Shown one piece after another: positions 13,460 to 39,585 of a DNA stretch of 64,000 nucleotides. Below the pieces are notes generated by a model, which ran no database searches, had not been told where the DNA came from, and saw nothing but the letters and a program-made list of their open reading frames with translations. Within the stretch, counting starts at the first letter, position 1. Each line of letters begins with the position of its first letter. A program made the translations under genes and the position numbers. Origin of the DNA: Bryoerythrophyllum caledonicum (lineage: Eukaryota > Streptophyta > Bryopsida > Pottiales > Pottiaceae); the NCBI GenBank assembly GCA_963971425.1, contig OZ020524.1, positions 18,901,022 through 18,965,021 of the forward strand. The letters are read 5' to 3'.

Positions 13460-13545
13460 TATCACGGCAGGGTTGTCATAACGGACGGGTTGAGGTGATC
13501 GGACGGGACAACCGGACGGGCGGTCCGGACGGCACGGACGGATTG
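13460..13545 (+). repeat. hAT left end: TSD, TIR and GGACGGG subterminal repeats
   Basis: The target duplication TATCACGG is followed by the TIR CAGGGTTGTCATA at 13468. At least five GGACGG(G) units, mostly preceded by C, follow within 75 bp. Such subterminal arrays are the usual binding sites of hAT transposases. Confidence 0.85.
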
Positions 13546-13637
13546 CCCAAAGAGCGGCCAATAATTTTTTGCAAGTAAGAAATTTTTACTGTGATCGCCA
13601 CATCACATACGGACGTGTCACGCCACCGTCGCACTAG

Positions 13638-13678
13638 GGCGGGGACGTCACCATGAGGGGCAGAGACGTCTCCACCCC
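13638..13678. repeat. GACGTC palindromic module cluster 1 (near left hAT end)
   Basis: Two GC-rich units: GGGCGGGGACGTCACC and GGGCAGAGACGTCTCCACCC. They lie 170-210 bp inside the left end. The consensus GGCGGAGACGTCTCCGCC is self-complementary and recurs in four more clusters, all inside the hAT. Confidence 0.75.
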
Positions 13679-13916
13679 TCATGTAGGCGTCCACGCCCCT
13701 GCATCATTGAGCGGAGAGGCCTTAATGTCTGGAAGCAAAATATATTTATTACATTAAAAAGTTTCACGATAAAACAAGAATTTCCTAATCTCATACTTCC
13801 AAACGAAGTAATATCTTGTAGTTATCTAAGAAACCTTTTTCTCTCCTAGCTTCTTCTATGAATTATCACAACTCTCTTGATTTCGCATACATATATGTAG
13901 TTACTTTTCTTGTCCT

Positions 13917-16900
13917 TTAATTATTGAAACGGCCCGATTTGCGTACTCCTTCGGTGGAAGGGCCACCCATAACCGCATCTCGAAGGACGATATCATCATC
14001 ATCTGGTGCCTCATCGCAATCTGGACGGTTGTCATCATCAGCTCCTTCACCGTTCTCATCTGAGAATTCTCCATTGCTATCATCCGTAGTCCAAAAGCCC
14101 TCTATTTCAGAGTTGTCATTGCGAAGCTCTACGACTGTTTCACCATCGCAATGCGAGTGTGTGAATCTCTTTTGTCGATGTGCGTGAGGATCATTGCAGT
14201 CGGAATTTATGGTTGGGCCGCTGGTAGGACGAATTGCTTGATTCAGAACAACAAACGCCGGAGTTGTTGAAGAGCGTCCTCGAACATACGTATCCAAAAA
14301 CGGTTGTACAACCACGTTCGGATCTCGTGCCCCTATTCCAAGGAGGGGACGTCTACGATGCCTTGAGGAGGATGCTTCGCCGTTGTTTCTTCCTACAAGG
14401 CCTCTAGCCGCTCCACGGCCTCTAGACCCTCTACGAGCATTAGTCCTTGCACTCGGTTGTATATATTGACCCATTGGATGAAGAGGCATCCTTGTAGCGG
14501 CCAAAGGGGGTTTGCCGTTTCTAGTAGTAGTAGCGGAAGTGTTTAGATCCATCCCCTCAACGCCTACACTTCGTTGAAAAGGTCCATACATGGCATTCGC
14601 CGTTCTAGGAGAAGAGGAATTCCGGGAAGGCGGCGTTGGTACATTCTGGTCATTGATAACCGTAGGCAACACCACAACCGGAGATGGTTGTGGCTCAAGG
14701 TCCTCTGTGAATGCAAAAGCATCATCGGGGTCTACATATTCCAGGTCAAAACACTTTCGCTGATTAACAACCCTTTCATTTCTTCGAGTCGTCCCTACAA
14801 TTGTTGTGTTTACAACATTTGCGTTAGAGTCTCCTTGAACGACTCCAATGCTATGAAATGATGCACCCATTCCAATAGGGCTCTCTTGGCCATACCGGTT
14901 TTCAACCGATGCTTGGTTGTTTCGAGTCGCAGTATTTACTGCGTTCTCTCCCGCTCCGTTGTTGTCCCCATCTCCATTTCCACCACCATAATCTGATGGG
15001 GAATTGTCCTCGTCCCAAACATTCCCGACATTGCCCCCCCTATTTCAGGCTCTTCAACGTTAGTCACATTTGGGATGTCGCTCTCTGAGGAAGTAGACAA
15101 AGGTTGCACTTCATGAATGCCCTCATTTTGAGGAAGATGAGGCGAAGGACTGCGACGAGGACTTTGATTCCAAGGTCCCCAACAACCTTGAGCCAATTCT
15201 TCTTCCACATCGTCATCATCTCCGTAATAGTTTCTTGTTTCCTCAAGATGATCAGCGCCTTCTGCCCAAAGATTAGGGTGTCCACGGTACTCCAACGGAG
15301 TGTGGGGAGCTGCCATCTTGTGCCCTTCCTCTTCCTCGGCTATCAATACATCAAATTCACGATTAGGTTCACCCACCGGGACTAGCCCCAGGGCATCTGG
15401 GTCGGAATCCTCCGAGTGAATATTCGCATCGTACCATCAAACGGGATCGGCCCCTGGTCTTTGTTGAAGGCATCGGCTATTGGTATAAATATACACCAAT
15501 GATGCAGCCTTTTCTGCCGCTAATCGATTTCGGCTCTTGTTGTGGACAAACGAGTACATACTCCAATTTCGTTCGCAAGAGCTAGCTGAACACGTAAAGG
15601 CTAGAATACGAACAACTATTTTAGACAATGCCTTGTCTGCGATCCTGGCCCACCATTGGTGGAGTTGAAGCTTTGTCTGGTGGATGTCAGATGCCTCGGT
15701 AGGGCCATATGGTCCTGTGCCCTCCTCGTACTGCGTTAACTCATATTGGACGTCCTCATATGAGACTTCCAATACCTCCATCATTTTGCGAACAACTCGA
15801 TTCAATGCTCTTTGTGAGATTCCGTCAGTCCTAAGCGCCACATTATCCTTGAGGTACGGATTCAAAAGAGCCCCGGCGTAGTGAACATCGGTAAAAACCA
15901 TTTGCCACCGGGCATCAAAAGATTGCTCAAGAGTGGATGTTATGTCAGCTCGTAGAGTAAAGGGTGACTCTCTCAAAGAGTACACGTGTTCTCGCAAATT
16001 ATGCATCACGAGCCACGCACGATCCATGGCTGGTTTGCGGCCATCAAACACACGCAATGCCTTCAAAACATCCCCAGTCATGTGCACGTAATTCTGACAT
16101 CGTTGCCAAAAGGCCACATCTTCGATGGTGAGCACCACATTACACGCTGCGGTTGCTGCTTGCTCTCCATTTTGTTTGTTCCGTAGGGTTGCAAAGTAGT
16201 TTACAACACGGGGGTGGTCTTTCAACTGCTCCAACACTCCTTTGAGTCTCACCAATCGATCCAACATAAGGAAATTACAAGCAAAGCGGGTTTCATTGGG
16301 CACTACAATATGCAGGTTTGGACTCAACTCACGAAGTGTCCCCATTGTCGAATGATGGTTTCTAATATATTTGCACAATTTCTTTGCCCTCTCTATTAAA
16401 TCTTTAAATTCTTGGACCTTCGCCCAATCTTCCAACATGAGATCCAATGCATGTGCCATGCACCCCTGCTTGTGAATGTGCGGGTATGTGAGAATAATAT
16501 CATCCATCGCTCCAAGCATGTTGGCAGCATTGTCTGTACAAATCTGTGTCACATTCTTGGAACCCACCTTCTCAATGTAAACTTTCACTTGGTCCGCTAT
16601 GTACCGCATGGACTTCTTCTCACCACTGGTGTCTATGCTCCCCAAGAATACGTCACCAGTGGGGCACGACATCATTAAATTCATGAGGGGCCTCCGATGG
16701 ACATCATCCCAACCATCCGTGCATATCGACACCCCATAATTTTTGATTGCAAAACCAAATTTGGCTTCAATCTCTTTCTCAATTTGTAACCTCTTAGGTT
16801 CAATCAATCTAGTCCTCAACTGGTGATATGTAGGAGGAGTGTACTCAAACTTTGCCATAGATGTCGCCCTCACTGCATCGATGAACGCTTGATTTCGCGC

Positions 16901-17458
16901 CACATTAAAAGGCACATTCGCTTGATAGAAACAAGTCGCCCACTTCTCATCAAGTTCCTTCCTCTTTGTAATGTTAAAAACATCAAGCATCCGTTGTTGA
17001 TGTAGTTGCCCAGATCTAGTGGAATTCGAGGCGGTAAGACCACCCGACACATGTTCGCGGTCGTTTCCTTCAGAGAGATTAGGCACTCCTTCATGAGGCC
17101 CACTTGTTATCCCACCCGCCACATTATTTTGAGCGTCGAATTGGCTTGAAGTGTCAATAGTTGGTGCCCTCGATGGACCACTCGGGCCTGAATTTCCGCC
17201 ATACATGTCCCCGCCCGTCATTCGTTGCGGAACAATGTTTCCACAATTGGCAAATCGACTTCGCACATAGGGAGGTAGGCTACGACAAATCGACCTCTCT
17301 GACTTGGCGCCGTATCCAAAGTGAGTGAACGCACGCTTACGTTTGTAGCTAAAAATATAGTTACAGAAAACACAACTCACTTTGCCCCCGTTGTCACCAA
17401 AATTGTACCAAGGTTCCCATTCTTTTGTTTGCTTCCTTTGACTTCCCATTGCATTCAC
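13917..17458 (-). pseudogene. hAT transposase with long acidic/low-complexity C-terminus
   Basis: The first 673 codons (17458-15437) show a BED-like zinc finger (C29, C32, H46) and a DUF659/hAT core. CTDGWDDVHRRPLMNLM and CTDNAANM give two of the catalytic aspartates. The C-terminus has the hAT dimerisation region with SSCERNWSMYS and LVYIYTNSR. A TGA at 15437-15439 interrupts the frame, which continues in phase as WYDANIHSEDSD into an acidic, proline-rich tail. A frame change then occurs near the C7 run at 15034-15040. The other frame continues to 13917 as a low-complexity tail with an RGRGAARG patch and a D/E-rich end. The intact protein would be over 1,150 aa, unusually long for hAT. The TATA-like site at 17512-17521 and palindromic cluster 2 lie upstream. 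Confidence 0.85.
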
Positions 17459-17744
17459 GGCTTATGCCAAATAATGTGCAAGTCCCATCTAAGCCAAAAT
17501 CCGGGGCTAGTTATAGTATAGAATCAGGTGAAAATGTGAGGTCTGATAGCGCTGGTGCACTGCTAGAATCAATTTTTACATCACCTCAGCCGCACACCAG
17601 TGCCGCCTGCCACCCAAGTAGACTCGCAAGGAGCTCAAACAAAATTGAGGTCCAAGGGATAGAGGCCAAGGTGACAAGCGTGAGGACAATCGGCCCTCCC
17701 CGAACCTTTTACACACGAGCCAAGAACGGGTGGGACCTGACGTG

Positions 17745-18060
17745 CCAAGGGCGGGGACGTCTCCGTCCCACCAGGGTAGGGCGGAGACGTCCCCGCCCTT
17801 ACTTGAGCAGGGGCTGGGACGTCTCTCCAACCTAGGAGAAGGAGGCCTTTGGGGCATTTTGGGTGCTTAGGCACTCCTCCTCTCCATGAGGAGGGTGGAG
17901 GTTTTAATATAGGGTACCTTATTTTTGGTTCCAACAAGATTGCGACGCACTTAAAATAAGAAGCAAGTTATGTCTACGAAGGAAGGCTTTCGGGAAAGTA
18001 CTACTTTTGTCCTTTGACCGCATGCTCTCCAATAATGAACACCTTTATTAGCTCCCTTTT
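17745..18060 (+). repeat. Duplicated block, paired with 33256-33625
   Basis: The same order of modules appears in both blocks in the same orientation: GACGTC palindromes, CTCCATGAGG.GGGTG, TTATTTTTGGTTCC.ACAAGAT, and GGAAAGTAC.ACTTTTGT. CATGCTCTC.AATAA and ACACCTTTATTAGCTCCC follow. They flank the split gene and its MULE. This is probably an internal segmental duplication of the hAT cargo. Confidence 0.7.
17748..17823. repeat. GACGTC palindromic module cluster 2 (upstream of hAT transposase)
   Basis: Three units (GGGCGGGGACGTCTCCGTCC, GGCGGAGACGTCCCCGCCC, GGGGCTGGGACGTCTCTCC) sit about 300 bp upstream of the transposase start at 17458 (minus strand). A TATA-like TATACTATAA on the minus strand lies at about 17512-17521, between them and the start codon. 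Confidence 0.75.
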
Positions 18061-18064
18061 AGAT

Positions 18065-18324
18065 CAAGTAGTGAATAGCATGGGAGCTATGCAAGTCCCC
18101 ATCCATAACGGGTAGTATAAGCCTCTAGTAGAATGTAATGTGCAAGTTCTCTAAATAAATAATTTAAACACAATTTCCCCACAAAAGATTAGGAATGTAC
18201 CACATACCATTAAAGCAAAAAAATAAACCAAGTAGTGAATAGCATGGGAGCTATGCAAGTCCCCATCCATAACGGGTAGTATAAGCCTCTAGTAGAATGT
18301 AATGTGCAAGTTCTCTAAATAAAT
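18065..18324 (+). repeat. Two identical 96-bp direct repeats
   Basis: Copies at 18065-18160 and 18229-18324 are identical over 96 bp, beginning CAAGTAGTGAATAGCATGGG and separated by 68 bp. The first 31 bp also occur at 34069-34099 inside a MITE. Identity implies a recent local duplication. Confidence 0.85.
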
Positions 18325-18430
18325 TGTACCATTACAAACAAAAAGGATATTTAAAACCATGTAATGTTTAGAGCAAAAGTATTGTTCACAAAATTGATTT
18401 GCTACGTCCTAAACCTTTAAATACTCCTAG

Positions 18431-18734
18431 TCAATAGTAACGTTGGTGAAGGGCTCGTTCGGTCCTCCTCAGCCTACCACGTGCTTGTGTCTTTTCGCTC
18501 GCGACTTGGACGTGGGTTCCGTCGGAGTCATCATCTGAACTTGACGTGTCAGTATCATAGCTAGGTGTGTCGTCCATCACAGTCATGAACTTGCCCAATC
18601 CACCTTCCGGATACTTGCGCCATCCCATTGGAATTATTCCATTTTCAGGGCAAGGAATTTTTACCTTCCCCGGCATCGACTTCAAAGTGGACCAATCCAC
18701 TATTTTGCCCAACTTCACCTCCGCATGAACACCC
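18431..18734 (-). pseudogene. C-terminal half of MULE-split cargo gene
   Basis: The half encodes VHAEVKLGKIVDWSTLKSM, a KYPEGGLGKFM motif and an acidic Asp/Ser stretch, ending at 18431. It is paralogous to 36110-36450 in the RING gene (VHAKVKLGKRVDWSTLKAM, YPEGGLGKLM). Its N-terminal half lies at 32778-33132 on the far side of the MULE. The function of this module is unknown. No RING domain follows, so this copy was shorter than its paralog even before insertion. Confidence 0.75.
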
Positions 18735-18793
18735 GAGCGAAGCTATTTTGTGAGCAGAAAGCGGTGAGCGGTGAGCGGTGAACAGAAAAATTA
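18735..18793 (+). repeat. MULE left terminal inverted repeat
   Basis: Begins GAGCGAAGCTATTTTGTGAG and continues with AGCGGTGAGCGGTGAGCGGT. Three direct GCGGTGA units within it resemble transposase-binding iterons. Confidence 0.8.
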
Positions 18794-19879
18794 GGGTTTT
18801 TGGCAGCATTTTTCTTAAAATACATGGATATTTGTTTCAAGAATTTGCTGATGTACATTTAAATAAGAAGTTTGGCTTTTTTGGGTTCATAATTTGGTCA
18901 ATATTTTGGAAAATGAATGAACCTATAACCGTGAAAAAAGAGATTGGTTAAAACTTTGGCCTCATGTTGTGGAAGAATATATGAGCCTATAACCGTGAAA
19001 ATGAATATATTTGTAATGAGTTACGCACATAAGGAATGAAAGAAATTTTATATGCCGCCCGAATGTACTTAAAATCATGCATGTTTTAAAGACTATCTTT
19101 TTTAACATCGTACCATCAAAAAAATAATTGTTCCAATATAAAGTGTAAGTTTGGCCATGTTGTTCCATCTCACAAGGTAGAAATATGCACTACGGGGAAG
19201 ATTGCATATATGATGAACTTAACTTTTTGTTTACAATCTAATTCTCCCTTACCTCGACAGTATTAGAAGTGCAGACTAGAATTTGGGAACATATAGAATG
19301 AAATCAATGGTAGACACAGAAGAACTTTTTATCTAATTAGGTTTGAAATTAATTCATACATCATTTTTGGTTTTTTTTTATAAGAAGGATGATACTTTGT
19401 AAGAGAATATCGGTGATAATAATAATACAGTAGGGGAGACGCATGTACGACAATATTACACGGTGGCCCTTTTAGTCTCACCGCCATTTCTGTTATAAAA
19501 GGAATAAGAAGTACAGTAGAACTATTTGTCACACAGTTCTTACAGTGTGACAGTGTGGTAGCAGGTTTTCTAACACGCGTTTGATCTCGTTGTAGCTGAA
19601 ACTAGGTGCGTGGATAAACTGATCTACTTCAGGAAGCAGATTACAAAGCCGGGTAAAAACATAATACATATGTTTGCAATTTACCCATTGACCACGCTTA
19701 CCTAATGACTTTGCTGCCATATCCTTAAAGAAAGGACAATCACAACTTGGAAATTGACTGACAGTGATGAGATACTGGGATGATTTGGATCCTTGACGAG
19801 ACTCAAATGATACAATTGAACCTAGTGCTGGAGAAGGAAGCAGAGTGGCTTTGAGAATTTTACCATTAATTGAAAGCGC

Positions 19880-22800
19880 TCATGCGTAGCTGTTGGAATG
19901 CTTTGTTGTTGGTGCCTTGGAGTTGCGTCGAATGTTCTTCCCAAATCTGCGCTTTGGATACTCGTCCGGGGAAATTGGTGCCGGGAAGTCATCAAAATTG
20001 ATGAGACCATTGAAATCACTGAACAACTGGTGCGGTGCAAAGGCCGGTCGTTCAGCCAAGCAAAATCCAGCATGTTCGAGAGCAAACACTTCTTCTTGTG
20101 TAAGATTAGTACCAAGCTTTACGGGCCAAATCTCTGGCACATGCGGTTTAGCAACAACCCACTTGCGCCTAGTGCCCTTCACACAACGCTCAATATCATC
20201 ATTGCAAAAGAAAAACTGCATTTATTCTACCTTGTTTTTCTTGTATGACGTCATCATGCCTGTGTAAGTAGGAGCAGCAGTAGCTTTGTTGTACTGAACT
20301 ATTTTTGCCACGCATTTTCTTTTTGTGATAGCATATTGTGCAAAACATGCTTTCGCTGAGGTCTTCGAAAGCCGCGCTATATGCCATTCCTTCTCATTAC
20401 AAGATGTCTCAAGGATTGCCTTCGTATGATATGGAATTGGGACGGTTGTTGTTGCCTCTTCATGTGGACTACTCTGCACTTCAGGTGGATTAAGTTGTAC
20501 GATAGGGGCAAACACCTCTTCTGCAGTAAGATCGACAATCGTGGTGTGGCCACCGTAGCGTGTTCTCTTCATGGGTCGAGAGACGCTAATTTTGTCAGGG
20601 CAATGTGAATCAAACTCTGATCCTATGGGAATATCTGCCTTCTGCTTTACAGAGAAGAAAACCTCTTCACCTTCCAAGTGTGGCTCTCTTGTGCAAAATT
20701 CCGAAGCGCCTCTCATCTCTTCTAACGCCGCATGCAACTTCTTCGGATCGCCGGAGCTTTTCGCATTACGTTGGGCAAGTCGAAGACGAAGATCTTCCTT
20801 AGAAGGTCCCGTGCCTGCACGCTCGCCTTTGGAGAACTGGTAGTATGCTAGAACTTGCGTAAATGCTTGGACATAATCATCCACCGTTGCTACGTAGAGA
20901 TCTTTTCCTCGTTTTCCGGATTGTTGAAGCCACTTGTTGTGCACCGTTTCAGCCAGATTGCAGGAAGGCATTTCCACAAGTTCCTCCTCCGTTAGATCCT
21001 GACTCACAGACTAAAACGTTAGCAAGAAAACCACCGTAGCGATACCAATTGTCATTTAAAAAAAAACAAACGTGAAAAGAAGACATCACTTACAAGCTCA
21101 AGAAAACCACCCCATTGGCGGTAACGAAAGTGCCAAAACGCTAGCCAAAGGTCGAGGCGAAGAACACCTTCTTCGGTTGTAGCGCCTGATGACAACCACC
21201 ATGACCGGATGGTAAGGTACTTCCTCTCTGCATCTTCCAGTGAAGCAGCATTCTTGTACTGTTTACATAGAGAGCGGTGTTGCTCTTGTAGGTCGGGTCG
21301 AATGTCAGCTTTTATATGCTTCTCCAGAGATTGCGTCCAGTGAAATAGGCACGTGCGTTCACGATTTTCCATTGGGGTCTTTGCATCACCGGAGCCGTAG
21401 ATGATCCTCACTACATTCCAATTAGCTTGGGCAGTGTCCGCCATAAATCCTTTAAACTGAGGTTTCAAAATGCCATGTCATTCTGCAATGACATTCAAGT
21501 TCTTCCAAAATAAAAGCTGGGCCTCAACATCCTCAGATTGCATGTCACAAACAGCTATGGTCATGACACGACAATATGATGAGTCGTACACATGACAAGC
21601 CATCGTGGTCCAACCCTTCACACGCTTGACATGATCAAACATCATCCATGATTTGCACAAATCTCCATCAAATTGCATTCGTCTAACAATGTCAACACCA
21701 CTACCTGGGCCAACTTCAGACATCTTGAAAACAAATACCTTATCTGATTCAGAACCTTGTCCAGGGAACATGTTATTTTGCAGGTACGCCCATTTGCTGG
21801 ATCCTCTGAGCTTCGTAATACTGTCCATGACTCCATAACGCCGGAGGTACCGAAAAGATGTGACCTGGTTGCGCAGATTTGGAGATGTCAAGATCTTGCA
21901 AGTCTCAAGGATGGGCAAGAACTCCTCAGATGATAGACTTTTCTCAAGCGCACCTTCAGGATTAAGTAGAATAGACGCTAGAAAGTCCTTGCCGGCCTCT
22001 AAAATTATAGGTGAATTCGTGGCAGTGGGTGTTCTTTCTACCTGGTCACTCAGTAGGGTCGTAAGACGCTCCGCAGACTCCCTGTCTACACCCTTCTTGA
22101 CTGGATGCTTGTGACAACCAATATGGACACATGCACGAGACATCGGAGGGGGACTTAAAATATAGTATATCTTGGCTGAACAAACGTTCAAACATGTAGG
22201 AGGAGTCTGACATATTTTGTAGACGACTGTAGAATTCTTGGGAGGATTTGAGTCAATTCCAAATCGTAAATACGATGACCCATCCCACTCGGTCTCATTC
22301 GCGGGAGTTGGCCTATGAATTCTATCAAGGTACGCGCACTGGTTATTGACACACTGCAAGTGCCCAAGACAAGATGACATTCTAAATGACAGACCCATGT
22401 CGTTCTGAATGTGGGTTGTGACAGTACGAGTCCATACATGACCATCATGACGTTTGTCCATGCCTTGTAATAGCTTGGCTTGTGACTGCGAAGACAACAT
22501 TGAAGCTGGAGGTAAAACAAAAATGAGATCCCCATCAAAGCTTGGAGGCAAGCAATCCACGGTAGATATCGGGACCTTTGAAAAATCAACCCTCGACAAT
22601 ATGGATTTTGACCCCTTTCTGGCACCTAAGTTCCTTATACAATCTACTATGGACGTTGGAGGGGATCTAGATGGTAGATGTGGAGGTTTCACATGAAGAG
22701 GTCGATTGTCAAGAGAGGTATCACGTACTGGAGAATCTACATTGACAAGAGATGGAGTAGAATCTGGTTTCTCTAGATGAACAAGAACAGGGGTGTCTGT

Positions 22801-23223
22801 ATCTGAGTCATCACTCAAAATGTGAATTGTTTCAGAACCCGACTCAACTTTGATTGTCCGAGGACCACTATCCTGTTGGTTGCTTGTAATTGAGACACGA
22901 GATGCCAACATTTGGCTGGATGAACTGTGCGTATTATCTCTAACGCCGTACACTTTAAAAGTTCCACACTTGAGCAGCCATGATTTCCCTTCGTTAGTAG
23001 TGACGGCTTCTTGACCTATGGTGTGAGTAACAACTCCGGACTCTAAATCACGTACTTCTTCATCAACATAAACTGAAGCCTCCAATAAATGGAATCTAGA
23101 AGAAAGTCGACTCGCACTAACAGAGCAATGACCATCGAAAGACACACGGAACGTAATTGGGATTTCTTGACCATCACCATGAATCAGAACTGTGCCTAAA
23201 CTACCTACATCAGCAGACGACAT
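19880..23223 (-). pseudogene. MULE transposase-like gene with two in-frame stops
   Basis: Two exons: 23223-21094 and 21010-19880, with an 83-bp GT-AG intron, phase 0. The encoded length is about 1,085 codons. The N-terminal half has zinc-binding pairs (CLGHLQCVNNQCAYLDR, and CVHIGCHKHPVKKG). A DDE-like core follows: MMFDHVKRVKGWTT, FMADTAQANW, then CLFHWTQSLEKH, the usual Asp and C-x2-H-W signature of MULE transposases. Frames are intact except TGA at 21478-21480 (VIAE-stop-HGIL) and TAA at 20222-20224. The basic C-terminal end has RRFGKNIRRN. A decayed paralog lies at 12031-12740. It fits the autonomous transposase of the surrounding MULE. The family call rests on the core motifs; the N-terminal zinc region is not assigned. 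Confidence 0.75.
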
Positions 23224-23910
23224 GACGAAGAATTTTAGAAGTCCAAGTATGAAATGAGAGAGTTAAACCAAGCGACCTGATTAGATTTATATTGAGAACT
23301 AATCAATTATTATATTCTATCAAATTATGGATGAACAACATGATAAAGAGTATGACAAAAAATTGGGCAAGTCTAGATCCGTTTTATGTGTCGTGCTAGA
23401 TAGAACACATAATGGAGACTGACAATGTTCAAAATGATGGCGTTCTTGACATAAACAACTTCCCCGATCTACCTGACCACAAAATAGATAAATTACCAGT
23501 TGGAAATTGAAATGAGTGAGGTATTATAATTCTAAATCAGCGTGTAGTAGTCGAACTTTGGAATTAACATAAATACACTTATGTTATTAATAAGCGTGAA
23601 AGGTGGCTAAGCGCGCTTCAAAAAATCTAAACATAATGTACAAAATAGGTGTAGTGCATGTAATTGAAGTCTCACAAGGTCATAAAGGTTGATATAATTA
23701 TTAGTTTCTAATTAAAAATAATGATAAACGATAGCGGGTGACAGCTTAATAGCTATGATAAGCTCTGACAAAAGTTACACTATTGAATATAGCAATAATG
23801 AAGTGTATTGTTGTCATTGGATTTCTGTTGATTTTCATGAGCAACATCTTCATTTCACAAATTGTCGAATTTGATAAGTTGAGTGAGATGGAAAATCTGG
23901 CATATCTCAG

Positions 23911-26711: not shown

Positions 26712-26857
26712 GTAAGTCCTCCAGTTGATTTCGGTTCTGGATATGTATTTCTCCTGTACATGCGCTTGGTGCGCTCGATGCGAAATGTTTTTAAAAACCT
26801 TTCGGGATTATTCTAGCTGAATCCAGATTCTCTTGTTGGTCACAGAAGGGAGCCGAG

Positions 26858-29800: not shown

Positions 29801-31544
29801 TTGAAGTTTGGATCAAGCTTTCCTCCGACCTTTACATGTATACTCCAGTGCAGCAAAAGAGGTACGCAGCCAATCACCTCCAAGCTGGGCGTTGGTACCT
29901 TGATTGTTCACCAAACTATACTCCGGACGATGAGGTACACATTAGGAATAGCCTTGATGCTGCTTCTGTGTCTCCTATTGGAGCTACCAACGTTGTCGAC
30001 CTTCTTGAGGAAGACTCCATTCAACCAATTCATGTTCGTGGCGACGGTTCTTCTCAGAAGAAGAAACCTTTGACCAAAGCCCAGAAGCAGGCGGTAGACA
30101 AGGTTGCACAAGTGAAGGAGGTGGGAGATGCCACTACTGCTGCGGCCTCTAGTCTTCCTACATTCTCAGTATTACCTAGCAATATCACTGCCCCAACAAG
30201 TGACCAACATGGTATGTTACCACACTCTTCATCTCAGTTCCCTACCACTTCAAGTGTTGCACAAGCCACGGAGGAGCTCCTTGGGCAACGGAAAGTCCGC
30301 CAGCTGCCCTCTGCTTCCACCTCTGTTGCACAGATACATCCTTTGGAGGTGATGTTGGAAAATGCGTCCCTTTTTGCGGTAATGGAGACTCTTGGTAGGC
30401 CAGCAGGCCCTGATTAATTATGGGAGAAGCTTCATCAATTTATTACCCAGGTATTTTTTCATATATATTACCTATTTTGGTTATTTAGACTATTCATCAA
30501 ATTATTCATCATTTCATCTCATTTCTTATTGTTTCATGTAGGTTGGTTCTGGTCGAACACGTCGTGTGTCTTCTCCACATTGTAAGAACACCGGTCTGGA
30601 TCTCATCATCGCCAACATTCCAGAGAATCTGCCAGTGCCTGGCACTTCAATGCCCCCTTCGACAATTCCACAATGGAATTCACAACCTGAGCGGTATGTA
30701 GAGTCCATTTTTGAGTTTGGTGATGCATATTTGCCTGATGACGCCGCCATTCTTCTTTTCCACTGCGATGATCGTACACTCTGCTGCGAAGTTGAAGAAG
30801 TTGCGGAGCAGTATAGCTTCCACCTTTGTAAAAATTGGTGGGGAATTAATGATATTGCCTTGGCATCTCCAAAGTTCCCCTCGACCACGGTACGTTTTAT
30901 TTTCCAATTCCATTGTCTCTTTTGGAATTTTGTTTAGCAATTGTGATTTTTAATGGATTGGGTCTATTGCAGTCGCATCGCTTTTGGATCCAGCTCTTTG
31001 TCCGTGATGAACCCATTCAATCATAGTTCTCTATCATAGAGAATCGCGAGCTTTCGGATGTGGGTCTCGAAGTTGAGCAGACTGACACTTTTTTCAATCT
31101 TACCACTGTCAAGAACCAGCTCATGCAAGGGAGTTTGCCCTGGCGTGGTGCACGGAAAAAAGATCCCCTTTTCATGCAAGTCTTGATTGAGCCCTTCACA
31201 AAACCTGGTGACATCGTGTTGGATTGGAAGGCCTCCACTGGTACCCTTCATGAACTCTTTATTTATTTTTGCAATTTGATTTCTTGTTAACCATTATCAT
31301 ATGATTATTTATATGTTTTCTAATCCTTGCAGGTGCCTCTATTCGTGCCTGCCAAGCCATTGGTAGGCACATAGTTGCATTTGAAGATGATCCTGATATC
31401 TTCACTACAATCCTACAGCCTTTGGTTGCTAAGCCTTCTCCTCCTCCGGCGGTTGCCATGAAGGCTGTTAGGATGGCTAGCCAGCCTCTCTTAGAGGAGC
31501 GCCCATCAAAGAAGCCAAAACGCAATCGATTTGCCTGTGCATAA
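26858..31544 (+). pseudogene. ParB-like plus beta-class DNA methyltransferase-like gene carried by the MULE
   Basis: About ten exons joined by GT-AG introns. Examples are 26858-26917, 27842-28440, 28512-28707, 29113-29328, 29411-29652, 29739-30450, 30542-30889, 30973-31240 and 31333-31544. The 28787-28998 junction is not in perfect phase. The N-terminal domain contains YVWNGNHRFSAW, a ParB-type G-x-H-R box, followed by a basic/helical region. The C-terminal half has LDLIIANIPENLP at the motif IV position, then FTKPGDIVLDWKASTG (motif I) and GRHIVAFEDD. The order IV then I is that of beta-class N4/N6 amino-methyltransferases. DPPY is not conserved and motif I lacks the usual PFAG, so activity is doubtful. 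In-frame stops: TAA 28016, TAA 30415, TAG 31024. An acidic last exon may follow (about 31628-31812). Confidence 0.6.
27091..27130. repeat. Perfect 40-bp palindrome in intron 1 of the ParB/methyltransferase gene
   Basis: Arms TTGCCTGATGAGGCTTCGGC and its exact complement meet at 27110/27111 with no spacer. Read forward it encodes EASAPKPHQAT, resembling the SAPNP first-exon motif, so it may have arisen from a third exon-1 copy. The RNA would form a very stable hairpin. Confidence 0.9.
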
Positions 31545-31627
31545 GTTTTTTTTTATTTATCCATTCTAAAATATTTGTAATCCATATACTCTACTTGTTA
31601 GCGGATCACTAACTGTATGTTATGCAG

Positions 31628-31812
31628 AGCTTTTTCGTTCGAGCCTTGCAGAGGCTTTCACGCTTCCAAGCTATGCCGAGGATATGGCTATTGCATATAC
31701 ACACACTCCTTCTCCAGCTCCTTCTCCCCGCCGCGCATTCCATTCCAGTGTGGAACAATTTATGGATGTTGAGGCTTCGGAAGGGGATGTTAGTGAGGGA
31801 TATAGTAGTTAG
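31628..31812 (+). other. Possible last exon of the ParB/methyltransferase gene
   Basis: After TATGCAG, one frame reads ELFRSSLAEAFTLPSYAED and then a Pro/Ser-rich and acidic tail ending EGYSS-stop at 31812. Coding character is good, but the upstream donor is unclear because the preceding exon ends in TAA at 31542-31544. Confidence 0.35.
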
Positions 31813-32289
31813 GAAGGGTCTTCACTTGTAGCCCATGATTTTACTAGTATTTGTATTTTCAGTGTCATTGACTTGTGAGTCCGACATGCATATGTTTTAT
31901 GTGCAATTTGGCTAACAATCATTTCATGTGTTTCTATATATTTATTTTATATATTATCTATTTTGTATATGGCCTAGTACTATTCATAGTTTTATTTGTG
32001 AGCCATAAATAGTGACTAATGTATTAAATATAATGAAGTAAATAAATTGGTAGAATTTATGAGAATTTAGCCTTAGTTAGTCAATTAGATGTGTGTATAT
32101 GATTAGCAAAGATATTTCACTCAAATTTGAATTTCTAGTTTAGCAAGGATTGTATTTATCAAAGTCATTTTGTATTAGTGGGTAACGGTGACTTATCTAG
32201 AGAAATGATATGGATGGAAGTTGTACTGGTTATCACTAACCAATATTAAAGCTTGAGGTTTCTCATTGCAAAAAACATGTTTTTAAATA

Positions 32290-32560
32290 ATTGAAAATAA
32301 AAATAAAATAAAAATATAGACAAAGAAGGAGAAGAAAAAGAAAATGAAGATAAAATTTTAAACAAGAAAAAATAGAAGAAGAAAAAAAGGTAAAAACATT
32401 ATTAAAAATAAAGAAAGAAAAAGAAAATATAAAAGAAGAAAAGAAGAAAATGAAGAAGAGTAAAAATGGAAAAGAAGAAGAAGAGAATCAATTTAAAAGA
32501 AAATGATAAGAAAATAATGGAAAGAGAAAAAGAAAAAGAAAAGAGAATGAAGAAAAATTT
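32290..32560 (+). repeat. Polypurine low-complexity tract
   Basis: About 270 bp of almost pure A/G on the plus strand (AAAGAAGAAG-type) lie close to the MULE right end. It is capable of triplex formation. Together with 31832-32289 (AT-rich, no gene seen) it fills the space between the methyltransferase gene and the TIR. Confidence 0.8.
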
Positions 32561-32717
32561 GCTTACAACAGATATAATGTCAAAATGCCCCACTCACTTT
32601 AAACAAATCCCACGGTTATAGAACCTCTAATTACTAAAAAAATCCATCCAACCTCTGATAATCCACGGTAATAAATCCCTAATATCTAAATTTTTGGAAC
32701 TTTCATCTCGCCGTCGC

Positions 32718-32777
32718 TTAAAATTCTCTGCTCACTGCTCACAGCTCACCGCTCTACGCTCACATAATAGCATTCCC
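32718..32777 (-). repeat. MULE right terminal inverted repeat
   Basis: Reverse complement begins GGGAATGCTATTATGTGAGC and continues with AGCGGTGAGCTGTGAGCAGT. It aligns to the left end over about 57 bp with roughly three-quarters identity by eye. Confidence 0.8.
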
Positions 32778-33132
32778 CATGAACACCCCGGGCAATGAAG
32801 AGATTTACTTTGTTGCGTTTGACAAATGGGACGTCATACAACACTTGGTAAACTTCGATGCATCGGTTTTTAAACGCCTCGTCGATGCAATGTTTCAAGT
32901 TTGCCTTATGGAAGCGCCGGTGATAGTTGTGTCGCGCCTCGATGTAGTGCGCACAATCATCAAAACTCCATGGCTCCACTACGTCCTCCCAACCTCGAAA
33001 AGCCAACTTCTCGGGATTATGAAGAACGTGCAACCGCTTCCGATGGGCGTTCCCCGCTCTTGCACGGGTCTTGTCTCGCTCCTCCTTGGCCAATTGTCCG
33101 GATGAAGACATGGTGTGCACGTGTGAATGCAA
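32778..33132 (-). pseudogene. N-terminal half of MULE-split cargo gene
   Basis: The half starts near MSSSGQLAKEERDKTRARAG and continues RKRLHVLHNPEKLAFRGWED, EPWSFDDCAHYIE and YHRRFHKANL. It ends EVYQVLYDVPFVKRNKVNLF-IARGVH at the insertion point. It matches the front of the intact-length paralog at 36450-36822 throughout. The final codons lie in the 11-bp target duplication. The basic N-terminus could be a nuclear-targeting segment; no known domain is recognised. GACGTC cluster 3 lies upstream. Confidence 0.75.
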
Positions 33133-33255
33133 AATTCTGGCGTGGATGGATGAATGAGACCTCGCACAACGCCCACATCCAGCTCAATGAAGAGATGGTG
33201 GATAGGAGTATGCGAGGCGGGGACAAATGAGGTCCCCTTCCATTAAAATAGTAAT

Positions 33256-33338
33256 CCGGTGGGGGCGGAGACGTCCCCGCCCCTGCCTCGGTAGGGGCGG
33301 AGACGTCTCCGCCCCACCAGGGCAGGGCGGGGACGTTT
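33256..33338. repeat. GACGTC palindromic module cluster 3 (upstream of split gene)
   Basis: Two complete palindromic units and one half unit (GGGCGGGGACGTTTGC) lie about 130 bp upstream of the minus-strand ORF starting at 33132. A flanking block to about 33625 is shared with 17745-18060. Confidence 0.75.
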
Positions 33339-33625
33339 GCTTGTAAATTGGGGGGGGGGGCATTTGTCTCGACAAAACTTTCCAAGGAGGCGTTTGAGGC
33401 CACTCTTGCTTGGCCGAGGCACTCCTCATCTCCATGAGGCGGGTGCACAATTAAATATGGGGTGATTTATTTTTGGTTCCGACAAGATCCTAATGCGCTT
33501 AAAATAACATGCAGATTATGTCTTTCCCTAGTTCTAGGGAGGAAGGCGAAATGGAAAGTACAACTTTTGTACTTTGACGGCATGCTCTCTAATAAGGAAC
33601 ACCTTTATTAGCTCCCTATTAGTTT
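33339..33625 (+). repeat. Duplicated block, partner of 17745-18060
   Basis: It matches the 17824-18060 segment with small indels (CTCCATGAGGCGGGTG, TTATTTTTGGTTCCGACAAG, AACACCTTTATTAGCTCCC). It ends where a TTAA-MITE copy begins. Confidence 0.7.
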
Positions 33626-33649
33626 TGGAGCAAACATAAGAGTGTAAAA

Positions 33650-34282
33650 AATTATTTCCTTCCAAATTTAAAAAAAAAATTCCTTGTCTTTAGTGGAAAA
33701 TAACGCTTCAACTCAAGTCAAAGATTTTCACATATTGCCAAAAATATAACGGGCAAGGTACCAAAAACAAAAACGTCTTACCACATAAAACTTAGAGATT
33801 TTAACTTTTTATACTTTTGATTTTTTCCACAACAATATGTGGTGTAGACCTTCATATTGACCATAAATATACATCAATCTAAAACATATCAAGTATCTAA
33901 AAACTAAAACGTTACTTGCCCATTTTTTAGCTTCCACTACTAGCATAGTTGACTTGAATAAGGTACATCCTTTTTCTACCTCTAACAATTGGTGTATAAG
34001 GAACTAACATCATCCTAAACTACCATTAGTAATGGATTTAGGCCTTATCTAGTGCAAAAATTTGATACCAAGTAGTGAATAGCATGGGAGCTATGCAAGC
34101 CTTTCAATCCGTGTGGTTAAAATTTATGAAATTTTGTGGGGACATTAACAAAGAAGTATTTATTGTGATCCTACGGTTAGATGTAGAAATAAGAAGGTTT
34201 TGTCTCCATTCTTAGGCATTATACTATAGCCTCGCAGTTTTGAAGTGTTTTTGGTGCAAAAATGCCTTGGTCCTTTAGGGAT
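33650..34282 (-). mobile_element. TTAA-MITE copy 2, truncated, with filler DNA
   Basis: It is related to the MITE at 4673-5596. It shares the CTTTAGTG..AAATA, CAATATGTGGTG..GACCTTCATATTGAC, CTAACATCAT and TCAATCCGTG blocks. The right end reads GGTCCTTTAGGG at about 34270-34281; the left end is truncated. At 34069-34099 a 31-bp stretch identical to the 18065 repeat replaces about 70 bp of MITE sequence. Confidence 0.7.
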
Positions 34283-34536
34283 AAAAATTGTTTGGAGGTT
34301 TAAAACTTGGTCCACACCATTTTTTTAATACAAACGCACAAATCCTTATGAGGCTTAAGTACATCCATAATCACACGGATTAACACCACTATTATTAAGT
34401 AGAATGTAGACAGTACTATTCATATTTTTTTTTAGTATCCATAATGTAATACAAAAATGGGAAAATACATTAAATGCTAAAAGATGAAGCATTGTAAGAA
34501 AATTTTCTCTTGGCACCGCAAAAACAAAAAATACAC

Positions 34537-36822
34537 CTAGTCAATATTCATCGGGCTATTAGTAGTGCCACTCGCCCCTGCCTCGTTGTCGTGTGCCCCT
34601 ACGTGCATAGGGAGGTCTTCATCTGAGCCCAATACAAGTCTACGAGACGCCGATCGTGTTCTCATCGTTGGTCCATCTTCATCCAACACGGCCCTTAGGA
34701 TTTGGGATTGCATGAGCTGGTCGAGCGCTTGCCGTGTCCCTGGACTGTGCACATCGAGCAAGAAGTCGATTCCGTCATTTCGGAAAATTTCTTTCCACTC
34801 TGATTCCGATAATTGTCTTAGTTCTTGCGGGTCCGGTTGGTCAACGTCGTGAGAAATGCGATCCCCGTTGTCGTCTGTGATGCGAACTCCATCAACGGCC
34901 CACAACCATTGCCGTGGATGAGGTCCGAAACGAAATTGCTCCCCGTTCTCGTCCCAATGGCCATTAAAGCATTGGTAGAAGAAATTTTGTTTTCCTTGAC
35001 CATATTTGTCCTTTAACGGGATCAAATTCTTGCACACCCGGACAATCTGCTCCGGGTCCCTTTCCCAACCCCACTCGTTTGAGAGGTGCATCTTATCCAA
35101 CGAGTGCATCTTCAGTTTCCAGCTCCACACCAAATCCTTTCCCCACATATGTGATTGATCATGAGCGTTCGTCACATTGAACTCCCAATGCGGGGGCATG
35201 TATGGAATTAATCCAAAAAGTTCGTACAATTGCTCGTGAAAAGGGGCCTTGCACAATGAGCACCGCCGGCGTACAACCATCAAGCTAATCAAGCAAAATT
35301 GATGGTACAAGTGCTCACAAGTGCCTAGATGCATCCCACCTTCTGGACCAAATGGGTTTAGACAAATTGAACAAGTCGTACCGTCGGATACGAAGCTCGA
35401 AGGTTGTGGCCACAATAACATGGGTTTGCCCCGATGATCGAGGGTAGATGAAACCTCCTTTTTGAAATCCCATTTGTAACGGGACCAATCGATGGTTGTT
35501 TGCCCACCAGCGGTTTTCACCATCGCCACTTCATCCATCTTGAAAAGATCATCTACGAGGGCCCACGATGTCAAACCAAACACCCTCTCCTGGTTGTTTT
35601 CGGTATAGTTGTTGTCGATTTTTTGGAATTCCACCACCAATTGTCGGGACCGATCGACCGTGAAGACGCAGGCCAACTTCCATTGATAGTAATGTTCTAC
35701 CAACACATCCAAGCGACTTTGTAGTCTTGAATTCTCTTCAAGCGCTTTAGCGAGCTCTTTGCCGCCGTCACCCCCCGCACCCTCTTCTTTGTTGACCATA
35801 GCTTTGTCAGCGTTGGTAGGGGCCTCATCAAACGACAGTGAATCGTCTTGGGTTGACACGTGTACAAGCCCTTCCTCCTCCCGTCATGGACTACGATCTT
35901 CTGTGGTTATTGTACTAGCTTGAAGGGCAAGTCGGAGCTCCTCCATATCACGTCGTTGCTGGTCAATAACAATGTTTTTATCATTGACTTCAACTCTCAA
36001 CTTGCGAACCTCATCGCGCGATGACAATAGTTCTGTTGTCTTCCCTTCCAATTGGTTCAACATGGTTTGAATAGTGTTGGCAAAAATAGCACCGGTAGGC
36101 TTCTAACGTTCAATCAACAACCGGGGGGGATTGTATCTGAGCCCCAACTTCATTAACGGTATCGTTAACGACTACGTTATCCGTTTGTTCCGCCCTCCTT
36201 CGTTTGGTGCGTGCTTGTGTCCTTTGGCTCCTTGTGATTGGAACGTGGGATCCGTCAGAGTCTGTATCCGTGTTTGAGGGATCGGTCTCGTACGTGTCGA
36301 CCGGTTCAGTCTTCGCCATCAATTTGCCCAATCCGCCTTCTGGATACCTCCGTGTCCCCATTGGAATCAATCCATTCGCCGGAGAAAGAACTCTTATGCT
36401 ATCTCCCATGGCTTTCAAGGTGGACCAATCCACCCTCTTGCCCAACTTTACCTTTGCATGGACACCTCGCGCAAGGAAGAGATTTACTTCATTGCGTTTG
36501 ATATAAGGGATGTCGTACAAGACTTGGTATACTTCAATGCACCGATTTTTGAACACCTCGTCGGTGCACTTCCATAAATTTGCCTTGTGAAAGCGTCGGT
36601 GATAATTGTGTCGCTCCTCCGGGAAAGCCTTGTCGATATGGCACCACTCGATGAAGTTTGCGCAATCCTCGAAACTCCATGGCTCCGGAACTTCTTCCCA
36701 ACCTTTTTAAAAGCCAATTTAACAGGATTCCGAAGCACATGCAACCTCTTCCGCTGCTTGTTTCCCGATCGTAGTCGACTCTTGTCTCGTTCTTCTTTAT
36801 TCATTTTTACCGGCGTGGCCAT
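34537..36822 (-). pseudogene. Coiled-coil/RING-H2 protein gene (hAT cargo)
   Basis: The N-terminal part (36822-36110) is the ERDKSR...EPWSFEDC...VDWSTLK module shared with the split gene. It is followed by an acidic region and a KRRRAE basic patch. After a frame change near 36110, a coiled coil (LNQLEGKTTELLSS, EELRLALQ) runs to a TGA at 35884-35886. The frame then continues in phase to 34537. There CSICLNPF, GTCEHLYHQFC and RRRCSLCKAPF supply the eight C3H2C3 ligands of a RING-H2 domain. RING-H2 proteins are usually ubiquitin E3 ligases, so this would be a nuclear or cytosolic ligase. Another frameshift lies in an A-run at about 36707. Whether it was one gene or two is not certain. Confidence 0.7.
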
Positions 36823-36952
36823 GGGTGGGGAAAATCTGAATAATGTATGTGATGCGAATGGACGAAGTCCTCACACGACGCCCACAACCAACTCAATTAA
36901 GAGGTGGATGAAGAGGGAGTATGTGAGGCGAGGACAATTAGGGGTGTGCACG

Positions 36953-37129
36953 ATATTATATAGCCGATAGACGAAGCACTGGTCTAGGGTCCCCGGGCAG
37001 GGCCGGGGACGTCTCCGCGGCATGGACGGGGACGTCTCCGCCCCACCCCGGGCAGGGGCGGAGACGTCCCCGCCCTGCCAAGGTAGGGCGGGGACGTCTT
37101 CGCAAAAAGAACCCTACACCATATAAATA
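36953..37129. promoter_or_regulatory. Bidirectional promoter region of RING and kinase genes
   Basis: TATATAA (minus strand, 36956-36962) faces the RING gene start at 36822. TATAAATA (plus strand, 37122-37129) faces the kinase start at 37319. Four GACGTC palindromic units lie between them. The layout suggests shared regulation, possibly by the transposase or a bZIP-type factor; this is inference. Confidence 0.6.
36995..37102. repeat. GACGTC palindromic module cluster 4 (between divergent genes)
   Basis: Four units lie between the RING gene (start 36822, minus) and the kinase gene (start 37319, plus). They are bracketed by a TATA box on each side. Examples are GGCGGAGACGTCCCCGCC and GACGGGGACGTCTCCGCCCC. 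Confidence 0.8.
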
Positions 37130-37318
37130 GGGGACATTTTGTCCTTATTCTCTACCAAGTCTACTCCCTAGGCCTCACGTATTAGTTCGCTTTGCGGCCT
37201 GAAAGTGACTTTGGTGGGTGATCGGGCTTAGCCCATTTATTGTATCCAGACTCTTTGCGGTTTTTTTTAAAACCATCAACTTGGAATTTCGACCAAGGTA
37301 GGGAGTTGACAATCACAT

Positions 37319-38899
37319 ATGGCGGGAGAAGGAAGTAGGTCGATGGAGAAGCGCCCAGTATTTATGGACTTGGATGATGTTGATGAGACGGTTCTTCCGT
37401 CCACCTACACGGAGTTGACTTCGGGATCATTGAATCCGTCGTCATCGAGCGGGAAGAGGCGGAAGAAGTCACCAAATCCGGACATGCCCCTGCACGAATA
37501 TATGATTGAATGTAGAGGGATAGCCGTCGAGTTCTACAACCGCCCGACGAGAGGGGCGTTGACGAGGAGCTATCTGAACCACAACGAAGAGGGATACCAC
37601 AAGTTGACGGTTGACATGCGACACGAATTAATGTCAAACCTTGTTAAATCTGAGAAATTTAATAATTTCTTAGATTATTGGTTGCATTCGGAGTGGTTGG
37701 ACACACAAGTGACCGCACTGACCACCAATATCGTTGCGAACTGGTGTTACGTCACGGGGAATAAGGAGGATGAGAGCACCTGGAACCTGGAGGAGTGCGC
37801 ACTAGTGGCGAAGATGAGGATGATCCACGGCTTTGTTCAACAATACTCTTCTTCCCGTAAGAAGAAACTAGCTTCTTAGAAAGCGACTATTGAGGAGTGA
37901 ATTTTGGCTCACTACGTTGGTGGAACTTTCAAGTGGCTTGAAAGTTGCGCTAAAGTGATTCCAATGCCAGGGCAGAGCGCGGTGGGTGGCTATGGGGCTG
38001 TACGGAAGGTGATGATAACCAAATTGGAAAACATTCCAAGTTGGATTTACTTTGCCGGAAAGACTCTGACCAACACCAACGAGAGGGAGAAGCGCCGAAA
38101 CATCATCAACAAGGCTGGAGGGTGTCCGGTAGGGCATGTAGGGATCATTAGACTTGCGTACATCCACCCGAAAACTATGGAAGGATACACGCTCTGGTGG
38201 AATGCGGAATCTCTGGCTTCTTTTTGGTCCAAGTTTGACTCGAAAGTGGACGAAGCATTGCCATTTGAACGGAGTGAGATGCATCCAAATATTGGGTTGT
38301 CAATCCAAGAGCTTCGGTGGGTAAAAACTTACCGCCAAAATCGAGTGAACCTCGCGCTATCATTGCTTGTCATTGTGGGAAAATGCCACGACGCAAATTA
38401 TATACACAATGACATCTCTCCATCGAATGCTTTGCTCTACTTTGATGAGTGGAAATCCGATACAGTGTACATCGAAATTTGCGATTGGGGGCTTTCTAGT
38501 CGGGTTGTGGAGAATGAGCCATCAAGGTATGGTTATCAATTCAAGGAGGAGCTTCAATAAGAGAGAGAGCGGCGACGGTTTGTGGCACCAGAACTGTTCT
38601 ATAATTTTGGGGCGCGGGACTCCACCAACTCGCTTGAAGTCATGCAACGGTCACACCTCTACTCCAAGGCAACAGATGCATTTGCGGTGGGTTGGATTTG
38701 TGAAAAAATTTGGAAAGAAGATTGGGACACTTCATATTTCACCAGCAAAAACACGGAGCAATATGTAAACCAGAAGCTAAAATTTACAGCGTTGCAAAAA
38801 CAACTGCTCGAAGAACGGTCTTCTGTGCTAGATGTTGTAGACACATTAATGAAACCCCCCCACAACTGGACTATGCCTCTATGTTGTTACCGACAATAG
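37319..38899 (+). pseudogene. Protein-kinase-like gene (hAT cargo) with three in-frame stops
   Basis: One reading frame of 527 codons is interrupted by TAG (37877), TGA (37898) and TAA (38558), with no frameshift. The N-terminal 186 residues are unassigned and carry a GKRRKKS basic patch. The kinase part has GGYGAVRKV (glycine loop), FAGKTL (candidate ATP lysine) and IHNDISPSNALL (catalytic loop, HND instead of HRD). ICDWGLSSR (DWG in place of DFG) and RRFVAPELFY (APE) follow. Catalytic Asp and Asn and the metal-binding Asp are present. HNDISPSN-type loops are typical of divergent, fungal FunK1-like kinases. Transcription would start from the TATA box at 37122. Confidence 0.75.
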
Positions 38900-39312
38900 T
38901 TTTTTGTTAATTAGCTGCATTAGTATCGCATGTGGTGGTTAAATAGGCAATACGGCATCTTCGTAGAAGAATATGTGTACTTGGCAATTGCCATACGTTA
39001 TATTTTAATCAATATTGGATACGTCCAAATCTTAAATTCTAAATCCGAGATTTGCATTTGTTCAAGCACAAATAATTATTGATTCACTATTGATACACTA
39101 AATGTGCACAAGTGAAAGAAATGAATTTATTATTTCTACAAAAATTGATATATAGTGTAGTAAATGGCATTTAGTGTCCGGTTATGTCACTACACTAAGT
39201 GCCTCATTTGCAATTGGTGTATGGGTTCACATTTAGTGTATACTACAGTAAACATAAATTTTAGTTTACCAACATAGTGTCAATTGTTAAACACTATTAA
39301 CTAACTCATGAA

Positions 39313-39364
39313 GGGGCGGAGACGTCTCCGCCCTGCCCGTATGGGGCGGGGACGTCTCCGCCCC
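39313..39364. repeat. GACGTC palindromic module cluster 5 (near right hAT end)
   Basis: Two units (GGCGGAGACGTCTCCGCC and GGCGGGGACGTCTCCGCC) lie about 215 bp inside the right end, mirroring cluster 1 at the left end. Confidence 0.8.
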
Positions 39365-39470
39365 ACCTCCCTCTTGCCATTAGTCCCCGATCCTACTCAA
39401 ACATGACCCTCTCCTACGTGGCAGCTATGTGATGCCAACATGGCTACCACGTCGCCTATTTTTTACCTAG

Positions 39471-39501
39471 CGGGTAAGTCAACCGTCAGTTGACTTACCC
39501 G
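39471..39501. repeat. Perfect hairpin just inside the hAT right end
   Basis: 13-bp arms CGGGTAAGTCAAC and GTTGACTTACCCG enclose a 5-base loop. The hairpin abuts the GGACGGG subterminal array and may belong to the transposase-binding region. 38900-39312 otherwise shows no gene. Confidence 0.7.
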
Positions 39502-39585
39502 GACGGGCGAGAGCTCTACCGGACGGGCGAATCGGACGGACGGGCGTACCGGACGTCCGTCCAGTATGACAACCCTGTATCACGG
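39495..39585 (-). repeat. hAT right end: subterminal repeats, TIR and TSD
   Basis: Four GGACGGG-type units (from 39500), a GGACGTCCGTCC inverted pair, then TATGACAACCCTG (ends 39577) and the duplication TATCACGG at 39578-39585. It mirrors the left end in content. Confidence 0.85.

Follow-up and report, generated by a model that had tools for sequence, protein, structure and literature searches.

A hAT transposon with three further genes in the window

We analysed a 64,000-bp stretch of the genome of the moss Bryoerythrophyllum caledonicum (GenBank assembly GCA_963971425.1, contig OZ020524.1, positions 18,901,022 to 18,965,021), which as a whole is referred to here as the window. Within it lies a copy of a hAT transposon family that has reached a high copy number, with several hundred sets of ends in the genome. 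Besides the transposase gene, this copy carries a cargo of three genes: X1, which codes for 218 amino acids, X-RING (761 amino acids) and a kinase-like gene (526 amino acids). The coordinates of all features are collected in Table 1.

The domains of the transposase, the 8-bp target-site duplication and the short terminal inverted repeats (TIRs) identify the element as a hAT, as the original prediction for this locus had proposed. The TIR CAGGGTTGTCATA occurs once on each strand of the window, as a perfect inverted pair, and the two TIRs are flanked by identical copies of TATCACGG, which has one further occurrence in the window, at position 6513. Three copies of the heptamer GGACGGG lie near each end, out of eight in the window; these arrays may bind the transposase. 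Inverted ends, perfect duplication and subterminal arrays had all been foreseen, and all of them are present. The predicted size of 26 kb for the hAT does not hold. The hAT copy measures 12,056 bp and is split by a nested, Mutator-like element (MULE-like) of 14,043 bp, which makes up the remainder and is missing from all ten of the end-to-end copies described below; 26 kb is thereby ruled out as the size of the hAT.

A collinear family with paralogous empty sites

We searched the genome assembly (437 Mb in 894 contigs, with the window on contig C12) for the ends of the element. The left-type 26-mer end gave 473 matches and the right-type 26-mer end 512 (at most two mismatches), with 0 for the reversed-pattern control in each case, while exact matches to the 13-bp TIR numbered 381 + 417 (control 1 + 1). 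Because the end counts take in internally deleted derivatives, they cannot be read as a count of complete copies. Of the first 100 listed TIR matches, neighbours less than 60 kb apart formed 21 plus/minus, 4 minus/plus and 6 same-strand pairs. Ten of the 21 plus/minus pairs have a spacing of 12.0-14.0 kb and come from the part of contig C1 that was listed; these are all such pairs within the first 100 listed ends, and all ten turned out to be collinear copies with all four genes (E01 to E10), so that the pairing of the ends is not due to chance. Each of them aligns with the window at 13468-18734 and about 32774-39577; E07 is without part of the transposase, and several carry private insertions. 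The 8-bp duplications of these end-to-end copies are exact in seven and have one or two mismatches in three. The expectation that correctly oriented ends with duplications would recur in the genome is thus borne out, as is the expectation of a common cargo order, with the order of RING and kinase kept in the ten end-to-end copies and in three further ones (E11 to E13). These three were picked for their open RING frames, a choice that favours young copies, and were counted in the form in which they were retrieved, either lacking ends or including flanking sequence.

The window insertion itself sits in a repeat, and a search with its joined flanks, retaining one TATCACGG, gave 29 matches. The junction is spanned by 23 long matches (>200 bases, 72-79% identity) and by one short match; two more are the halves of the query locus in the window, and three are confined to one side. 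We read five of the paralogous empty sites; TATCACGG is intact in one, differs by one base in three and by three bases in one.

These data bear on the alternative that there is no transposon unit at all, and that a gene cluster happens to lie between two short elements of separate origin or between artefacts of the assembly. The genome does contain short or unusual derivatives that share these ends. Against this stand the collinear copies with matching duplications, the comparable counts of left (473) and right (512) ends and the paralogous empty sites, by which we count the alternative as refuted; its remaining probability is negligible. The specific version in which the two ends belong to separate miniature inverted-repeat elements (MITEs) is ruled out by the empty sites and the collinear copies.

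Two derivatives were read closely. L041 (C1:9537651-9541317) is a non-autonomous member of the family, an internally deleted derivative of 3.67 kb that is flanked by an exact duplication (CTACTGTC) and retains pieces of the element's middle. L042 (C1:6840753-6847022) spans 6.27 kb and has two right-type ends, near-perfect inverted arms of 1.69 kb and no 8-bp duplication, and is either an inverted derivative or an assembly artefact. Over the 13 loci with both ends read, the duplication is exact in nine (the window, E02-E05, E07-E09 and L041), has one or two mismatches in E01, E06 and E10, and is absent from L042.

Table 1. Features of the hAT copy and of the nested element, in window coordinates. 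Numbers of motifs per array are given in parentheses; fractions refer to copies of the family.
Feature	Position	Strand	Remarks
Left target-site duplication TATCACGG	13460..13467	.	8 bp; single and uninterrupted at paralogous empty sites
Left part of hAT	13468..18734	.	5,267 bp; collinear with 10/10 end-to-end copies
Left TIR CAGGGTTGTCATA	13468..13480	+	13 bp, perfect
Left subterminal GGACGGG array	13483..13520	+	3 copies: 13483, 13501, 13514
GRGACGTCYC motif, left subterminal zone	13663..13672	+	zone occupied in 12/14 copies
hAT transposase gene	13917..17449	-	670-amino-acid core (15437-17449), then long tail; interrupted in window copy
GRGACGTCYC array (3), upstream of transposase	17754..17825	+	14/14 copies
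X1, 3' part	18431..18734	-	gene split by nested element
Nested MULE-like element, not hAT	18735..32777	.	14,043 bp
Nested-element frames with SWIM-like stretch (by eye)	19529-23262	-	transposase-like gene
Nested-element second gene region	about 28019-30417	+	opposite orientation to transposase-like gene
X1, 5' part	32789..33111	-	gene split by nested element
Right part of hAT	32789..39577	.	6,789 bp; collinear with 10/10 end-to-end copies
GRGACGTCYC array (2), upstream of X1	33268..33309	+	14/14 copies
X-RING gene	34537..36822	-	761 amino acids in open copies; X1-like N-terminal domain and RING-H2; interrupted in window copy
GRGACGTCYC array (3), between divergent X-RING and kinase-like genes	37006..37070	+	13/14 copies, not E10
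Kinase-like gene	37319..38899	+	526 amino acids in open copies; interrupted in window copy
GRGACGTCYC array (2), right subterminal zone	39319..39358	+	13/14 copies, not E12
Right subterminal GGACGGG array	39501..39544	+	3 copies: 39501, 39521, 39538
Right TIR, inverted CAGGGTTGTCATA	39565..39577	-	perfect 13-bp match to left TIR
Right target-site duplication TATCACGG	39578..39585	.	8 bp, same as left

Transposase and cargo genes

The transposase matches the Pfam families DUF659 (5e-37) and Dimer_Tnp_hAT (9e-6; 25.8 bits, cut-off 21.4), both above cut-off. The motifs TDGW, TDNA, CMAHAL, TRFAC and SSCERNWS follow one another in this order along the protein and may correspond to the catalytic (DDE) positions of hATs. 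Transposase sequence is present in 14/14 copies, being partial in E07 and E11, and open frames found elsewhere in the genome reach about 1175-1190 amino acids. A MULE domain appeared in the scanned frames at E=0.16 only, below the Pfam cut-off, and the DUF3435 tyrosine recombinase captain was not found by Pfam in ten frames of the window element and four frames of other copies.

The kinase-like gene had been predicted and is confirmed; the RING-H2 gene was also predicted, and the RING is present, but as the C-terminal part of X-RING. In E11, E12 and E13 the X domain and the RING form one 777-amino-acid stop-to-stop frame, which rules out a stand-alone RING gene. By our own reading of the sequence the RING is of the C3H2C3 type; zf-RING_2 matches it at 9e-6, just below the Pfam gathering cut-off, and the best match in the PDB is RING finger protein 24 (5e-6). 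The best 94 of 1899 relatives of the RING part align from position 1 or 2 to position 448, with identities of 94-100%. The N-terminal part of X-RING is paralogous to X1, so the X domain is found twice per element (repeats D6, D7 and D12). To judge from these repeats, the X domain was probably duplicated within the element and one copy then fused to the RING, or the two steps took place in the reverse order. Upstream of the transposase and of X1, too, the sequences resemble each other (repeats D9 and D10).

The 218-amino-acid frame of X1 is open in copy E12 and has no credible relative in comparisons with Pfam and the PDB. The kinase-like protein of copy E11 matches Pkinase at 3.3e-10, above the Pfam cut-off, while the window piece alone scores 1e-4, below it. 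Its best PDB matches are VRK kinases (VRK1, about 4e-4), and a lysine, an HxD-like motif (HND) and a DxG-like motif (DWG) can be made out by our own reading. The gene is of a divergent kinase-like type. The best 150 of 1812 kinase-like relatives are 89-100% identical. All three cargo genes appear to be intronless, as one open frame exists for each in some copy. Neither the kinase nor X-RING has a relative in viral_contigs, in a search with a single-protein query that detects close relatives only; so far as examined, a viral origin of the cargo is ruled out.

Palindromic motif arrays near gene starts and ends

The palindromic motif GRGACGTCYC occurs 11 times in the window, always within the hAT, for which a first-order Markov model gives a mean of 0.04. 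None was found in the 37.9 kb of the window outside the hAT span, and none in the nested element. Over the 14 copies, 179/179 occurrences fall into five zones, at 8 to 21 per element. The zones were drawn after the first motif positions had been seen; a narrower zone for the gap between X-RING and the kinase-like gene leaves the gap counts unchanged. The left motif is missing in E08 and E11 and the right in E12, and E11 and E12 were fetched with an end incomplete or interrupted. The GACGTC array may be a promoter element shared by the genes, or else a site where a protein of the element lands.

Linkage of the cargo and selection upon it

Linkage was assessed on the best-scoring relatives, namely 94/1899 for RING, 66/2953 for transposase and 150/1812 for kinase, so that older or cargo-less relatives may be hidden and the counts are lower bounds. 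For 64/94 listed RING matches there is a listed kinase match on the other strand, in the expected divergent position with starts 2.6-4.9 kb apart, and no listed RING match has a kinase match within 8 kb solely in another arrangement. A listed RING match follows on the same strand and in the expected order for 30/66 listed transposase matches. The pairwise distance matrices of the four genes from the 14 copies agree (rho 0.71-0.91, p 0.001-0.003), and the four genes have therefore travelled together.

To look for selection, changes were split into those found in a single copy, which mostly arose after insertion, and those shared by at least two copies, which mostly arose in the source lineage. 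Stops were scored as replacements and indels skipped, and the transposase part that was counted runs from about DUF659 to the end. The pooled ratio of nonsynonymous to synonymous changes (pN/pS) is 0.48 for X-RING, 0.47 for the kinase, 0.36 for X1 and 0.56 for the transposase part. For shared changes omega is 0.57, 0.50, 0.38 and 0.72, respectively, and for single-copy changes 0.91, 0.96, 0.71 and 0.87. Pooling the cargo genes of the 14 copies gives synonymous-to-other counts of 114:152 among shared and 261:613 among single-copy changes (Fisher p=6.5e-5; the p-values for these codon counts are one-sided), replacements being rarer among the shared changes. In the transposase, the core follows the pattern of the cargo (41:58 shared against 101:257 single, p=0.009), and the tail departs from it (26:58 against 99:222, p=0.54). 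Selection on the cargo appears to have been of about the same strength as on the transposase core.

This pattern also bears on the possibility that selection on the host keeps the cargo, as a group of useful genes that the transposon disseminates in the way proposed for Starship cargo. The cargo is indeed under selection, and large fungal elements are described as bearing genes useful to their host (PMC9594970). The selection is seen, however, on changes common to dispersed copies, and single-copy changes are nearer to neutral (0.71-0.96); therefore no particular insertion appears to be preserved for the host. The copies examined moreover carry the same cargo, and we consider benefit to the host a very improbable explanation.

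A further alternative is Pack-type capture, in which copies of host genes were caught by chance and amplified as passengers with no role of their own. RING and kinase genes are common types of host gene. Plant DNA transposons, hATs among them, often capture coding DNA, but Pack-TYPE elements are described as non-autonomous (PMC8903248), whereas the moss family encodes a transposase. The cargo is also full-length, open in many of the listed copies and selected on shared changes, and it has one upstream motif in common with the transposase. Chance capture is unlikely on these grounds.

A four-gene element with cargo that may serve its spread

Taken together, these observations make it highly probable that we are dealing with an autonomous-type, four-gene hAT family of high copy number, whose cargo is a regular, selected part that probably serves the spread of the element. 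Cut-and-paste movement with 8-bp duplication is the established mechanism of hATs. In this way the transposase would move the element after recognising its TIRs and, probably, the GGACGGG arrays. X1, the E3-ligase-like X-RING and the kinase-like gene belong regularly to the element rather than riding along by accident, because they are kept in the same order, are open in some copies and are selected in the lineages that yield new copies. With GACGTC palindromes arrayed near the gene starts and at both ends, the genes are probably switched on together. The cargo most likely aids multiplication, with proteins of the host or the element being altered by ubiquitin ligation and phosphorylation; silencing might be relieved, for example, or the transposase regulated. 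We infer that the cargo serves the element, perhaps against silencing.

Several points weigh against this interpretation. None of the four genes is intact in the window copy: stops or frameshifts interrupt the transposase, X-RING and kinase-like genes, and the nested element interrupts X1. The RING scores fall just below the Pfam gathering cut-offs. Three of the 66 listed transposase matches have a RING match within 25 kb only in another orientation. The selection is moderate gene by gene (p=0.022 for X-RING, 0.003 for the kinase, 0.060 for X1 and 0.19 for the transposase part), and the codon tests take sites as independent. Wrong-frame controls give a shared omega of 0.81-1.65, two frames of the transposase part reaching 0.81, and the reverse frame with common third codon positions gives 0.41-0.77, as expected. 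Selection and motifs were moreover studied in 14 copies from one genome.

A more specific version of the same interpretation, which we offer tentatively and hold to have a rather low chance of being right, is a counter-defence system. In this version X1 or the X domain would bind the GACGTC arrays at promoters and ends, X-RING, recruited to these arrays, would destroy a host silencing factor there, the kinase would tune either this process or the transposase, and the family would thereby evade silencing. If true, a moss hAT would have arrived on its own at a strategy like that of VANC, with a ubiquitin ligase as the weapon.

The nested MULE-like element

The hAT was predicted to host a 14-kb MULE, and the sequence that interrupts X1 is indeed a nested MULE-like element. 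It is flanked by the 11-bp repeat CATGAACACCC (18724-18734 and 32778-32788), which agrees in length with the 8-11 bp given as common for MULE duplications (PMC6446971), and has similar, imperfect inverted ends. No match of more than 150 bp to it was found in any of the ten end-to-end hAT copies, and no Pfam family was found in it at 0.01. The further cargo module that had been assigned to the hAT belongs to this element instead.

Both genes of the nested element are multi-copy in the genome. In its family, the transposase-like gene and the oppositely oriented second gene are paired at a distance of about 5-6.5 kb, for example at C4:3844551/3850861, C11:24956172/24951193 and C8:8802879/8797980. 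Seven copies of a related group (57% identical) were found with an identical score of 744.2 bits, which suggests recent activity. In the left part of copy E11 (L035, on C10), a 511-amino-acid frame resembles the transposase of the nested element by eye, and the hAT and nested families therefore probably nest repeatedly. Separately from these families, the plastid-like contigs C894 and C821 carry open psaA and psaB frames with slightly different scores, and a third, decayed copy lies on C572. The best PDB matches of the plastid psaB are 8htu, 6l35/7xqp and 7ksq/7kux, photosystem I entries of Physcomitrium patens, as would be expected of a moss host.

Comparison with known systems

We take the element to be a plant DUF659-type hAT, Ac/Tam3-like in the broad sense. 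It shares with the superfamily the 8-bp duplications, short TIRs starting with CAGGG, the DUF659 and hAT dimerisation domains and GC-rich subterminal repeats. Typical hATs have one transposase gene and measure a few kb; the moss element differs in its 12 kb, in the retention of three additional genes by the copies examined and in an upstream motif common to its genes. Plant hATs are held to be small one-gene elements. The gene-carrying Pack-TYPE hATs resemble the moss element in having coding DNA between hAT ends in plants, but they are described as non-autonomous carriers of captured fragments (PMC8903248), while the moss family encodes its transposase and keeps whole genes. We found no multi-gene plant hAT described in the open-access literature, which is weak evidence, as papers were judged mostly from search listings and subscription papers and preprints lay largely outside; the term hAT was likewise not found in the main text of the review 'Giant Transposons in Eukaryotes' (PMC6431247).

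Among fungal elements, ToxhAT is alike in being a 14-kb multi-gene DNA transposon that was once filed as a hAT (PMC12506042). This former example of a multi-gene hAT has since been reclassified, the authors proposing the name ToxTA, and differs in its TA duplication, its 74-bp TIRs and its description there as single-copy (PMC12506042). Starships are also DNA transposons with genes besides the recombinase; they are described with a tyrosine recombinase captain and sizes of 143 kb and, putatively, 294 kb (PMC9594970), neither of which applies to the moss element. At 12 kb our element is large for a hAT, yet far smaller than these fungal elements.

For the role proposed for the cargo, we regard the anti-silencing protein VANC of the Arabidopsis VANDAL elements as the nearest worked example, by analogy. 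VANDALs are MULEs and are not known to carry a RING or a kinase gene. VANC is reported to bind short motifs arrayed in the non-coding parts of its own family and to cause the family to lose methylation (PMC5735166). The two systems are alike in having accessory genes and short non-coding motif arrays that vary in number by copy (PMC5735166); they differ in that the moss element has hAT domains and that its GACGTC-binding protein is a candidate only. Candidate proteins and a candidate DNA target are available in the moss family, which makes it a direct route to the question of how transposons in mosses withstand silencing. That an abundant family retains three additional genes under selection suggests that plant transposons of the cut-and-paste type can be parasites with several genes, accessory proteins included.

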